A stretch of DNA of 41,150 nt from NCBI GenBank assembly GCA_016882415.1, contig VGQL01000006.1, forward strand, positions 1 through 41,150, written 5' to 3'. The stretch is from Cyanobacteria bacterium M_DeepCast_200m_mx_001 (GTDB taxonomy: Bacteria > Cyanobacteriota > Cyanobacteriia > PCC-6307 > Cyanobiaceae). The position numbers and the translations under genes were made by a program. Positions 25,601 through 29,490 of this stretch are shown piece after piece. Under the pieces are notes generated by a model that was not told where the DNA came from, did not search any database, and saw only the letters and a list, made by a program, of their open reading frames with translations. Position 1 is the first letter of the stretch, and each line of letters begins with the position of its first letter.

Positions 25601-26116
25601 TCAGGAGGCCCCGAGGCGCAGGCCGGTGACGGAGCCGATCACCCGGAAATTGCTGCCCTCCAACTCAATCGGTGCGCCGATTTTGAGGTTCTGGTTGCCG
25701 AAGACCACGCCATCGGCCCCCTTGCGGCCCTCGCCCTGGAGCACGAAACGGGCGTCGATGGTGGCGAACTGCTCCTGGTTGGGGTCGGGGGCACTGACGA
25801 CGCGCCCATCGGCGAACACGGCGGAAAGCTTGCGCTGCAGCGGGATCACCTGCTTCACCGCCACGGCGCCGTGGGGCTGGTTGCGGATCACGATGTTCAC
25901 GGAGCCGCTGCTGCGGGCAGCCTTCAAGACGTCGTCGGGATCGGCCACCGGCACCCCGCGCACATCCACCATCACCGTGACCGGTTGCAGCTTGCCGGTG
26001 GCGCGGGCCACGGCGCCGCTCAGCTTGGGGCTCCAGAGCACCCCGGCCGCCGCCAGCAGCACGGCTGCCCCGGCCCCCAGATCCAAGGGTGACCAGCGGC
26101 GGGAACCTTCAGCCAT
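25601..26116 (-). CDS. DUF4330 domain membrane-anchored protein
   Basis: A 171-residue protein with a single N-terminal membrane segment (LDLGAGAAVLLAAAGVLWS) and a beta-rich outer part. Landmarks are PVTVMVDVRGVPVADPDDVLKAARSSG and the C-terminal IELEGSNFRVIGSVTGLRLG, matching the cyanobacterial DUF4330 family. Function unknown. ATG 26116 starts 57 nt after the DUF1995 gene, and dacB begins one base after its stop, so a link to envelope work is likely but unproven. Confidence 0.85.
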   Translation of the reverse strand: MAEGSRRWSPLDLGAGAAVLLAAAGVLWSPKLSGAVARATGKLQPVTVMVDVRGVPVADPDDVLKAARSSGSVNIVIRNQPHGAVAVKQVIPLQRKLSAVFADGRVVSAPDPNQEQFATIDARFVLQGEGRKGADGVVFGNQNLKIGAPIELEGSNFRVIGSVTGLRLGAS

Positions 26117-26173: not shown

Positions 26174-26812
26174 TCAGCCCTTGGCCGCCTGCTCCAGGGC
26201 CAGCAGGAGCTGTTCGGTGTCGGGTTTGCTGTCGAAACGGCAGAGGCTGCGGTAGCCGTCGGGATCACGGCGGTAAAAGCACCAGTCCTCGGGGTAGGCA
26301 TGGCGCAACGCCCCATCGGCGGTGGGGATCAGGGCATAGGCCGATTGCCAATCGCCGAGGAAGCCCTTGCGGCGCTCACGGGCCACGGTGCCGATGCCCA
26401 CGGCGGCATCCTCCAGGCGTCCGTTGAGCAGCACCACCGGCCCACGGTGCTGACCGCAGGTTCGCTCCACATCGTCGTAGTCCGCCGGGGTCGGGGCCAC
26501 GATCAGCAGCACGCCATCACTGCCACCATCGGCCTGCTGCAGGCGTTGCACGTCCCCCAGGCTGGTGATGGCGGGGGCCAGATCCGGCGCATCCCGTTTG
26601 GCCAGGGCCGTGGCACCGGCGTCGGGGCACACCAGACGGAGGTCGCTGAACCGGGGCAGCAGAGCCGCCGACAAACGCAGGGCCACCGGCAGGATCCGCA
26701 GCCCCTCGAAGCGCAACTCCGCGGTCCAGCGTTGGCGTCCCCCCTTGGCCAGCGCCGCCGCCACGGCGGTGAGCAGCTCCGCTTCAGCGGTGCGGAGATC
26801 GGCGGGGAGCAT
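26174..26812 (-). CDS. DUF1995 family protein
   Basis: A 212-residue soluble protein of the DUF1995 family, shared by cyanobacteria and chloroplasts: LPADLRTAEAELLTAVAAAL at the start, RLVCPDAGATALAKRDAPDL in the middle, and VVLLNGRLEDAAVGIG, then the C-terminal DWQSAYALIP and YPEDWCFYRRDPDGY. The plant relative LPA3 is reported to act in photosystem II assembly. Whether this one does is unknown. It lies 24 nt after the cysteine desulfurase-like gene. Confidence 0.85.
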   Translation of the reverse strand: MLPADLRTAEAELLTAVAAALAKGGRQRWTAELRFEGLRILPVALRLSAALLPRFSDLRLVCPDAGATALAKRDAPDLAPAITSLGDVQRLQQADGGSDGVLLIVAPTPADYDDVERTCGQHRGPVVLLNGRLEDAAVGIGTVARERRKGFLGDWQSAYALIPTADGALRHAYPEDWCFYRRDPDGYRSLCRFDSKPDTEQLLLALEQAAKG

Positions 26813-26836: not shown

Positions 26837-28018
26837 CTAGAAGCCGAAGGGTTGCAGGGCCCGGGCCATCGCCGCCGGCAGCTCCTCCAGCAGGCGCTCC
26901 CCATGCCAGGGCCCAAGGCTGATGCGCATCCCAGCCTGGGCTTCCTCGGCCCCGTATCCCATCGCCAGCAGCACCGGGCTCGGGGTCTGGCGGCCACTGC
27001 TGCAGGCGGAACCGCTGCTGGCGGCGAATCCCTGCCGCCAGAGCTGCTGCACCAGCTGACGACCGGCAATGGGCTGACCCTGGGGGCTGCGGGCCAGCAG
27101 GCTGAGGTGGTGGGGCAGGCGTTGGTGCGCCTGACCCTGGCGCGGATCCACGCCGGTGAGTTCGAGGCCGGGATGCAGCAGCAGCCGCTGCAGCAGGGCA
27201 TCACGGAGGTGCGAGCTGGGATCGACACCGCCGTGGTCCAGCAGGCGCCGCTGGCGCAGCTCCACCGCCTCCACGAAGCCCGTCACCAGCTCCACAGGCT
27301 CGGTGCCGGCCCGCAGTCCCCCCTCCTGGCCCCCTCCCCCCTGCAGCGGCTCCAGGCTGTGGCCGTCGCGCACCAGCAGGGCTCCGATCCCCTTTGGTCC
27401 CTGGATCTTGTGGGCCGTCAGGCTCATCAGATCCACCGGCAGGGCATCAAAGCTGATCGGGCGGTGCCCCAGCATCTGCACCCCATCCACGTGCAAGGGG
27501 ATCCCGGCGGCGCGACAGAGGGCCCCGATGCGTTCCAGGGGTTGCACGGAGCCCACTTCGCTCTGTCCCCAGATCACCGACACCAGGGCCGTGGGGGGAG
27601 CCAACAGGGCTTGCAGGCGCTCCAGATCCAGCCGTCCCTGACGATCCACCGGCAGCAGGTCCACCACCATGCCCCAGCGGCGCAGCTGGTCCGCCGCCGC
27701 AAGGCTGGCGGGGTGCTCGACGCTGGAGAGCAACACACGGGCACCTGACGTCTGGCCCCTGCAGCTCCCCAGCAGCGCCAGGTGGATCGATTCGGTGCCC
27801 CCAGAGGTGAACAGCACTCGCCCCGCCTGGCATCCCAGCAGCCCGGCCAACCGCTGCCGCTGGCGTTCCAGCTGCTCGGCGGCCCGCAGGCCAAAGCCGT
27901 GCAGGCTGGAGGGGTTCGCCCACGCCTCAGCCCGGCAGCGCTGCATGGCCGCCAGCACCGCCTCAGCGGGGGGCGTTGTGGCGGAGCAATCCAGGTAGTG
28001 GTGGAGGTCGTGCCCCAT
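26837..28018 (-). CDS. Cysteine desulfurase family protein (NifS/IscS-like)
   Basis: A 393-residue class V aminotransferase-fold PLP enzyme. Landmarks are YLDCSATTPP at the N-terminus, FTSGGTESIHLAL near residues 70-82, SSVEHPA with His102, HVDGVQ (Asp178, Gln181), the Schiff-base lysine K204 in TAHKIQGPKG, and Cys339 in SSGSACSSGRQ, the residue that would carry the persulfide. The expected reaction is Cys to Ala, supplying sulfur for Fe-S clusters or thiolation. Cyanobacteria carry several paralogues and I cannot tell which role this one has. It follows dapF by 23 nt. Confidence 0.9.
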   Translation of the reverse strand: MGHDLHHYLDCSATTPPAEAVLAAMQRCRAEAWANPSSLHGFGLRAAEQLERQRQRLAGLLGCQAGRVLFTSGGTESIHLALLGSCRGQTSGARVLLSSVEHPASLAAADQLRRWGMVVDLLPVDRQGRLDLERLQALLAPPTALVSVIWGQSEVGSVQPLERIGALCRAAGIPLHVDGVQMLGHRPISFDALPVDLMSLTAHKIQGPKGIGALLVRDGHSLEPLQGGGGQEGGLRAGTEPVELVTGFVEAVELRQRRLLDHGGVDPSSHLRDALLQRLLLHPGLELTGVDPRQGQAHQRLPHHLSLLARSPQGQPIAGRQLVQQLWRQGFAASSGSACSSGRQTPSPVLLAMGYGAEEAQAGMRISLGPWHGERLLEELPAAMARALQPFGF

Positions 28019-28041: not shown

Positions 28042-29208
28042 TCAGAGGTTGAAATCAGGCTGGCGTTCCGCCCGGGCCCGGGTGCGTGACTCCAGGGTGT
28101 TGGTGGCAAGGGTCACCAAATCGTCCAAGGAGGTGCCGTTGAGCAGGGCCTCGACGCGGGCGCGGGCCTCGGCGCTGGGGCAACGGTCCGGCCGGATGCA
28201 GCCCTGGGTGCAGACGGTGGCGCAATCAATGGCCTCCGCATCAGCAGCCGCAGACTCCGGGGCCTGGGGGTTGGCGGCCGCAGGGGGGATGGCGGGTGCC
28301 CCGGATTCGGCAGCCTGCTGGCGTGCGGCCGCCACCGCCGCAGGGTCGGGGACCACCCCATCGAACACGTGCTCCGCCGGGCCATCCATGAACACCCGAC
28401 CGCTGGCGGCATCCCAGTGGATCAACAGGGGGCCACCGGGCAGGTCCAGGCGGGCGCGGCGCTCACACAGGCCCAGGCTGTGCATGGCCACCAGGGTGGC
28501 GCAGGCCCCCGTGCCACAGGCGAGGGTTGGGCCGGCCCCCCGCTCCCACACCCGCATCTGCAGATGCTCCGGGTTGATCACCTGCACGAAATGCACATTG
28601 GTGCGCGCTGGGAAGGCGGGGTGGTGCTCCAGCAAGGGGCCAAAGCGCTCCAGATCGATTTCCTCCACGGCGGTCACAGGGATCACGACATGGGGGTTGC
28701 CCATGCCGGCGGCCGCCACCGCAAACCGCTCGCCATCCACCACCAGCTCGCCCTGGGGCACGCCCGCGTCCCCCACCTCCAGGCTGGTGGGCACCTGCTG
28801 GGGCTCCAGGAAGGGGGCCCCCATGTCCACCCGCACGGTGCCGTCCGCCAGCAGTTCCGGCACGATCCGGCCCGCCAGGGTGTCAATCGCCCAGGTGCGG
28901 CCCGGGCCATCCCCATCCACATCCGCCAGGAAGCGCGCCAGGCAGCGGATGCCGTTGCCGCACATCTCCGGCTCGGTGCCGTCGGCATTGAAGATGCGCA
29001 TGCGCAACTCACCGCCGGCGTTGGGGGGCAGGGCCAGGATCACCCCATCGCCCCCCACGCCGAAGCGGCGATCACAGAGCTGGACCACCCGTTCAGGGGT
29101 GAGGGCAAAGGCCCGTTCGGGGTTCGGGGTGGCCCGGCCATCCAGCAGCAGGAAATCGTTGCCCAGACCCTGGTATTTGCTGAAGGACAGGTTGCTGAAC
29201 TCGGACAC
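28042..29208 (-). CDS. dapF: Diaminopimelate epimerase with a Cys-containing C-terminal extension
   Basis: A 388-residue protein. Residues 1-285 are a complete DapF, which converts LL- to meso-diaminopimelate for lysine and peptidoglycan. The two catalytic cysteines are C83 (EMCGNGIRC) and C231 (ACGTGAC), and KYQGLGNDFLLLD is near the start. Residues ~286-388 are additional: an Ala/Pro-rich linker, then cysteines at 329, 333, 337 and 343 (CX3CX3CX5C) and a basic helical tail (SAEARARVEALL...SLDDLVTLA...). DapF is normally about 275-285 residues. I chose GTG 29208 at the conserved N-terminus although the frame is open to 29562. It is divergent from the Hfq-like gene by only 42 nt and heads a five-gene unit. 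Confidence 0.95.
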   Translation of the reverse strand: MSEFSNLSFSKYQGLGNDFLLLDGRATPNPERAFALTPERVVQLCDRRFGVGGDGVILALPPNAGGELRMRIFNADGTEPEMCGNGIRCLARFLADVDGDGPGRTWAIDTLAGRIVPELLADGTVRVDMGAPFLEPQQVPTSLEVGDAGVPQGELVVDGERFAVAAAGMGNPHVVIPVTAVEEIDLERFGPLLEHHPAFPARTNVHFVQVINPEHLQMRVWERGAGPTLACGTGACATLVAMHSLGLCERRARLDLPGGPLLIHWDAASGRVFMDGPAEHVFDGVVPDPAAVAAARQQAAESGAPAIPPAAANPQAPESAAADAEAIDCATVCTQGCIRPDRCPSAEARARVEALLNGTSLDDLVTLATNTLESRTRARAERQPDFNL

Positions 29209-29250: not shown

Positions 29251-29490
29251 ATGGGGAGCAGCTCGGAGCGCCACCCCGCCGGGTTTGACCCCTCCCAGCC
29301 CGGTATCCGCTGCCTGCAGCAGTGGATTCGACGGCGCACTCCCCTGCGCATCGAACTGGCCGGTGGTGGCCAAGTGCAGGGTGTTGCGGCCTGGGTGGAT
29401 GGCGAGTTCCTGGCGCTGCAGGGCGAGGCCGGCGAGGAGCCGGTGCTGGTGAACCGCAGGGCCATCGCCCTGATCCAGGCTCAGACCTGA
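29251..29490 (+). CDS. hfq: Hfq-like RNA-binding protein
   Basis: A 79-residue protein: a short variable start, then [40 protein letters not shown] and [11 protein letters not shown]. This follows the alpha-helix plus five-strand Sm fold in the divergent form seen in cyanobacterial Hfq, which interacts with partner proteins and RNA rather than resembling the E. coli sequence closely. A good Shine-Dalgarno sequence (GAGG, 29239-29242) sits 8 nt before ATG 29251. The frame is open upstream, hiding this start. Position beside dapF is, as I recall, typical of cyanobacterial hfq and supports the call. leuS follows 38 nt downstream. Confidence 0.82.

Follow-up and report, generated by a model that had tools for sequence, protein, structure and literature searches.

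According to the accessible part of one report, the two catalytic cysteines of the epimerase DapF in Corynebacterium glutamicum form a redox switch (PMC5296763). The genomic setting of dapF in cyanobacteria has also received attention; the order dapF-hfq-leuS in two marine cyanobacteria has already been published (PMC1242208, Figure 8 legend). For Synechocystis, the available excerpt of a further source lists two IscS-like desulfurases without a visible knockout phenotype (PMC7058544). DapF, hfq and a cysteine desulfurase are ordinary, known components, and all three occur together in the window, by which we mean the whole stretch of 41,150 nucleotides that was analysed, taken from a draft genome that is 62.85% complete. 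The DapF of this locus additionally carries a C-terminal tail with a CX3CX3CX5C motif. In reciprocal sequence searches the tail proves homologous to a free cyanobacterial protein that has the same motif and is mostly single-copy; we call it the Cys4 protein. The features of the locus are given in Table 1.

Table 1. Features of the dapF locus in the window, with positions, strand and basis of assignment
Feature	Position	Strand	Basis
DapF reading frame with tail, 388 codons, GTG start at 29208, stop at 28042	28042-29208	-	translation
DapF catalytic core, residues 1-286	28351..29208	-	TIGR00652 266.6 bits over residues 8-286; PF01678 E=9.8e-58
Ala/Pro-rich linker, residues 287-326	28231..28350	-	low identity, variable length
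Cys4 domain, residues 327-388 (62 residues)	28045..28230	-	homology to stand-alone cyanobacterial protein
C329 codon	28222..28224	-	translation
C333 codon	28210..28212	-	translation
C337 codon	28198..28200	-	translation
C343 codon	28180..28182	-	translation
NifS/IscS-like cysteine desulfurase, directly downstream of dapF	26837..28018	-	PF00266 E=4.7e-59
DUF1995 protein, next in shared block	26174..26812	-	PF09353 E=5.9e-37; synteny
DUF4330 protein, further block member	25601..26116	-	PF14221 E=7.1e-34; synteny
Cyanobacterial Hfq-related protein, divergent from dapF (start codon unassigned)	29251..29490	+	PF21979 E=2.1e-15

The cysteines of the 388-residue protein lie at positions 45, 83, 89, 231, 236, 248, 329, 333, 337 and 343. 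The score against the NCBIfam DapF equivalog TIGR00652 (cut-off 114.65 bits) places the protein among DapFs, and because this match ends at residue 286, the enzyme is complete ahead of the tail, in agreement with a sequence-only reading of the locus that had put the end of the epimerase at about residue 285. We assigned the catalytic cysteines, C83 and C231, from their conserved CGNGIRC and ACGTGAC contexts, and both are invariant in a five-row DapF alignment. The protein does not qualify as a bifunctional DapF/glutamate racemase (NF038284, 98.3 bits against a required 350). The window's DapF therefore has the same full core as the DapF family (TIGR00652, PF01678), with both catalytic cysteine positions and scores over both curated cut-offs, but it differs in 102 extra residues, comprising the linker and the Cys4 domain, that lie outside the family models. 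The extension of about 100 residues that the same reading had placed at 28042-28350 corresponds exactly to residues 287-388 plus the stop codon, and the four cysteines it named (C329, C333, C337 and C343) are confirmed. Among 25 DapFs of other families, the protein ends 0-10 residues past the core match. One other DapF, L281 (genome G063, family f16), is very divergent, with 45% identity to the window's core and an extreme branch in the tree, and is possibly a replaced gene.

Within the window's genus, 24 of 25 genomes (the window's own included) have a match to the tail with E <= 2.3e-15. The sole exception, G021, is 84% complete and gives a chance-level match (0.059); this genome and incomplete bins may conceal members. 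All four cysteines are present in 23 of the 24 tail-bearing genomes, the exception being G019 (locus L030), where only the last is found. The cysteines are thus conserved in close relatives, a point on which the proposal of a functional module had been made to depend, and they are lost in several more distant members of the family. In pairwise comparisons of 21 motif-bearing DapFs of the genus, the proteins are on average 85.8% identical in the core, 34.6% in the linker (29-59 residues long) and 78.6% in the domain, and the corresponding mean pN/pS values (210 pairs each) are 0.169, 0.577 and 0.240. By this measure the domain is shown to be under purifying selection, and the constraint on it within the genus is nearly that on the enzyme. 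Because the domain is conserved at low pN/pS and the linker drifts, we picture a conserved domain hanging on a drifting linker. The proposal that the tail is a distinct small module whose four cysteines are conserved is supported. The basic helical end that had also been described exists only locally, in the last stretch (ESRTRARAER); the domain as a whole is not basic, with a net charge of -1 in the window, a mean of -4.2 in 59 aligned relatives and, across 61 distinct fused four-Cys tails, a mean of -1.75 (range -8 to +2).

Outside the window's family, the main form of the domain is a free protein of approximately 65-85 residues (start codons unassigned). The search for stand-alone homologues that the sequence-only reading had suggested was productive: with the tail as query, free proteins are found at E values down to 3.4e-10, and with a free protein as query, the window's tail is found at 1.1e-10. 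The four cysteines of the tail and of the free proteins align, in rows preselected by a Cys-motif filter, which places them in one family. The free protein is homologous over the domain and has the same four cysteines and the same (S/T/P)LD helix as the tail, but most free forms, and those of family f10, carry an extra C-terminal segment resembling PPKWVxPED that is lacking in the window's family. To judge conservation without the motif filter, we consider 26 free representatives from 25 families, found by homology rather than by motif and hand-picked from the matches at about one per family. All 26 have the four cysteines, with a glycine before the third and a proline after the fourth, and 25 have the spacing CX3CX3CX5C. 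The one spacing exception, L147 (genome G060, family f13), has an insertion in the last loop, giving CX3CX3CX10C. Among 57 distinct fused tails, a count limited to those that have the four-Cys spacing, the glycine is present in 51 and the proline in 47. In the Cys-motif-filtered alignments (20 of 59 pieces, and 59 of 76 distinct pieces), the invariance of cysteines, glycine and proline is partly due to selection; fairer counts come from the free representatives (26), the DapFs of the window's family (78, see below) and the fused four-Cys tails (57).

In a class-wide search with a free homologue, matches with E<=1e-3 occur in 229 of 291 genomes, approximately 15 of which belong to the window's own family, and 62 genomes have none. 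The matches fall at one place per genome, except in G140 and G194. A profile search of 244 genomes of the phylum yielded 86 matches, all in the window's class, although the share of other-class genomes among the 244 is unlisted. A GTDB scan confirmed 330 of 355 stretches with the pattern, and all 80 of the titles listed from these 330 are cyanobacterial. Some near-complete genomes of families other than the window's (e.g., G083, G111 and G186) also go without a profile match. Given the 62 class genomes without a match, these near-complete misses and the repeated loss of the Cys loop from retained DapFs (see below), the Cys4 protein is dispensable.

The domain does not belong to a known zinc finger or other catalogued domain in Pfam or NCBIfam. 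In Pfam, neither the tail nor one free protein has any match up to E=10; in NCBIfam, the tail has only chance-level matches to long enzymes (best E=0.047), and the free protein has none. PHROGs gave no credible match for the tail and free protein (one weak, E=0.074), the best PDB sequence-profile matches (E 0.21) are to ribosomal proteins and were taken as chance, and no Cys4 homologue was found in phage, plasmid and IMG/VR collections. Genes near the free Cys4 gene were compared at 41 loci, minus 8 where the gene pattern was missed, and no neighbor is broadly common. In seven loci (L078, L088, L095, L098, L129, L138 and L158), the free gene is close to and divergent from a gene that we take to be mnmE-like.

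The gene order around dapF offers a view of how the tail might have arisen. A block consisting of divergent hfq, dapF with Cys4, desulfurase, DUF1995 and DUF4330 is seen in the window's family (f1) and in families f10 and f11, though not at every f10 locus. In f1 and in four distinct f10 loci (L063-L066), dapF and Cys4 form a single reading frame; counts for f10 use these four loci, as three of the seven f10 contigs were repeats. In the f11 locus L145 (genome G058), hfq is followed by dapF, a free Cys4 gene and a cysteine desulfurase. Here the Cys4 gene has its first ATG 12 bases past the TAG stop codon that ends dapF, in frame with it, and the first cysteine comes eight codons after this ATG, so that the junction reads in one frame as ...SMELAA*LLPT-MSEPARVNCAVDC. 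Another f11 genome (G077) has its Cys4 match approximately 70 bases from the desulfurase, on the same strand. A near-basal clade of fused f1 sequences (L172, L235 and L240) has junctions of 10-15 residues, compared with 40 in the window. The block continues with the DUF1995 and DUF4330 genes in the window, L145, L063 and L169-L172. Matches to a desulfurase occur no more than 900 nt downstream of the dapF core at 43 of 44 f1 loci, at the one f11 locus and at two of the four distinct f10 loci, and at none of 25 loci of other families. In the f10 locus L063 the desulfurase is approximately 1.5 kb beyond the fusion, and in L064 there is none in approximately 8 kb downstream. The window's desulfurase matches TIGR03402 with E=2.6e-88, yet is under that model's cut-off; it contains SACSSG and SLTAHK motifs, which we assume to be the sites of the catalytic cysteine and the PLP lysine. 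The desulfurase-DUF1995 neighborhood might itself be functional.

We read the segment from hfq to DUF4330 as one inherited block, and judging by gene order alone, the arrangement common to f1, f10 and f11 may reflect one historical event. Given an inherited block with adjacent, in-frame genes, a fusion would need little beyond a lost stop codon. In the DapF tree, f1 and f10 are separate, although a single clade is not rejected (p-AU 0.153). Because of this test and the gene block common to the three families, one fusion and two fusions are both admissible, and we rejected two independent fusions, in f1 and f10, as a firm claim. It is important to consider that the Cys4 gene is not beside dapF in any of 25 dapF loci of other families, so the link to dapF rests on f1, f10 and f11.

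The Cys loop has a different history from the rest of the tail. The domain profile matches 145 of 251 f1 genomes, several of them in its second half only, and all but two of the listed matches lie in open frames of at least 250 residues, part of which are without the Cys loop. Tails matching in the second half end in the same SLD helix without the loop. Among 78 distinct f1 DapFs, 57 have four cysteines and the helix, 13 have the helix and no cysteine, three have the helix and one cysteine, three from small, possibly Prochlorococcus-like genomes have no tail, and two are unclassified; no classified sequence has two or three cysteines. This sample was enriched for weak matches, so these shares are not frequencies. 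The unclassified sequences are L017, whose tail has the motif, and L252 (genome G113), whose 89-residue tail has no domain: it shows no recognizable Cys4 loop and a faint trace of the helix, and is perhaps a decayed remnant. On a tree of DapF cores (46 f1 rows, 28 with and 18 without the motif, plus four outgroups), the motif state changes at least eight times, six of these changes being forced by well-supported branches, and there are still eight changes when four tail-less or decayed rows are left uncounted. The long branches of L277, L279 and L280 make deep placements unsure. The tree does not tell gain from loss; since four cysteines at such a spacing are unlikely to arise de novo, we interpret the changes as losses. 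From this pattern the four cysteines would appear to act as a set, and the helix presumably has a reason of its own to stay. In the DapF tails of L212-L226, the Cys loop is lost and the conserved SLD helix is kept; this helix may bind something by itself.

Structure prediction of the tail, which the sequence-only reading had recommended, was informative for the domain itself. An AlphaFold model built from the window's tail and 59 relatives (mean pLDDT 77.4, pTM 0.47) has a Cys loop block with pLDDT 74-78 and a block at model residues 31-60 with pLDDT 89-93. Its two predicted helices, at model residues 30-42 and 45-65 (approximately residues 346-358 and 361-381 of DapF), form a hairpin. A full-length model from five sequences was too poor (mean pLDDT 55.3) to place the domain relative to the enzyme, and we excluded it from the reading of domain contacts. 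Foldseek searches of PDB and BFVD and VIA-align found no fold similar to the tail model, so there is no structural analogue pointing to a metal. Four cysteines within 15 residues, the glycine and proline positions, and retention of all or nearly none of the cysteines argue for one metal centre, and we infer that the domain is a compact module that binds metal, as Fe-S or Zn, and sits on a helical hairpin; on this evidence Fe-S and Zn would look alike. The spacing can be compared with compact Fe-S loops that we take to be CX6CX2CX5C in endonuclease III and to include CX2CX5C in WhiB and FNR. The span is similar and the final CX5C is common to all, but the spacing otherwise differs, and there is no profile or fold match. 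The neighboring desulfurase suggests Fe-S or sulfur chemistry.

The best explanation at present, whose chances of being right and of being wrong we put about level, is that a metal-binding Cys4 mini-protein became fused to DapF through stop-codon loss and acts on it in cis by way of a docked hairpin. Loss of the dapF stop codon would have joined the two proteins across a short in-frame junction. Through its four cysteines, a compact loop packed against the helical hairpin would hold a single metal centre (an Fe-S cluster or Zn), the hairpin would provide the docking surface, and the fused module would act on DapF in cis as the free protein would do in trans elsewhere. As a first guess at its job, it might signal redox or iron/sulfur status to DapF. 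In our assessment, the regulatory step is the weakest part of this explanation; the link is drawn from the redox switch in the C. glutamicum enzyme, and an effect of the tail on DapF is presumed. A more ambitious version, in which a mini-protein with Fe-S or Zn serves throughout cyanobacteria as a sensor of redox or iron state and controls DapF, mostly in trans and in cis in f1 and f10, strikes us as improbable. If it were true, lysine and cell-wall supply would be tied to photosynthetic redox, and lineages without the loop would have dropped this control.

Other explanations deserve consideration. It is possible, though we think unlikely, that the fusion is a historical one, in which gene order and stop-codon loss joined parts that work separately, with DapF as only a carrier. 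The separate, in-frame f11 genes would be expected under this idea, as would the long, fast-evolving linker, the repeated loss of the Cys loop with the DapF core kept, and an arrangement made common by block synteny. However, the domain profile is still matched in those 145 f1 genomes (part without the Cys loop), and the helix is kept on DapF in 16 distinct sequences with no or one cysteine, which suggests a role there. Alternatively, the four cysteines could form disulfides, as a thiol-disulfide module that keeps the catalytic pair of DapF reduced or oxidizes it in the dark. The catalytic pair does act as a redox switch in C. glutamicum, as far as the accessible text describes it (PMC5296763), and a long, variable linker would suit such a module, but the domain has no CXXC pair, its spacing with fixed glycine and proline (26 of 26 free proteins) looks more like a metal loop, and the free gene is away from dapF in most families. 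We therefore consider a thiol-disulfide role rather doubtful.

The proximity of the desulfurase raises the idea that the cysteines accept persulfide from it, and the contrast between f1, f10 and f11 and the 25 loci of other families in the counts above is in keeping with such sulfur transfer. Nevertheless, the desulfurase also adjoins dapF in small, tail-less f1 genomes (L277, L279 and L280), L064 lacks it downstream, and a considerable distance separates it from the Cys4 gene in other families. Moreover, it retains its catalytic-type cysteine at 19 of the 20 loci that lack the Cys loop or the whole tail (at the remaining locus, L218, the gene is cut off there), so the desulfurase does not depend on the Cys loop. 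For this reason we rejected obligate coupling of tail and desulfurase, and we regard sulfur transfer as very unlikely. The divergent hfq (57.1 bits against a cut-off of 52 for NF047718) had prompted the earlier proposal of RNA regulation, i.e., that the tail is an RNA- or DNA-binding module linked to Hfq. However, an hfq match is beside dapF, within the available flanking DNA, in 19 of 25 loci where dapF is tail-less and the Cys4 gene is elsewhere, so adjacency to hfq is no evidence for RNA binding by the tail. Since the domain is also acidic on average in relatives, and neither tail nor free protein matches a nucleic-acid-binding family in Pfam or NCBIfam, we rejected this function as scarcely credible. 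The incompleteness of the window's genome might suggest a frameshift, missed stop codon or mis-assembly that causes intergenic DNA to be read as protein. The same fusion is found in single-contig genomes that are 99-100% complete (G004, G012, G013, G020 and G023), and the domain's pN/pS of 0.24 is a coding signature; we rejected such an artefact, whose probability is negligible.

The natural series of full tails, Cys-less tails and tail-less DapFs provides ready-made variants for probing the role of the cysteines. An odd DapF tail has become a lead on an uncharacterized protein that is widespread in cyanobacteria; its fused, adjacent and free forms suggest that DapF, and perhaps the desulfurase, may be partners of this protein, which is otherwise unannotated in the libraries searched. 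Among listings of open-licence literature, we found no paper on the Cys4 protein or the DapF fusion, and none for the term CX3CX3CX5C.

Among described proteins, the Cys4 protein can be set beside CP12, NirP1 and NblD. By its available description, CP12 has two cysteines at each end (PMC7760959), whereas the Cys4 protein has four within 15 residues. NirP1 is described, in the portion of its source at hand, as having one invariant cysteine and three tryptophans (PMC10907346), a pattern from which the Cys4 alignment differs. The Cys4 protein is thus neither CP12 nor NirP1 according to these partial descriptions. By the libraries and open-licence listings covered, it apparently represents an undescribed cyanobacterial family. 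Despite these differences, the same portion reports that NirP1 is likewise missing from Prochlorococcus and from most marine Synechococcus (PMC10907346), and we liken the Cys4 protein to all three as small cyanobacterial proteins that act by binding other proteins.
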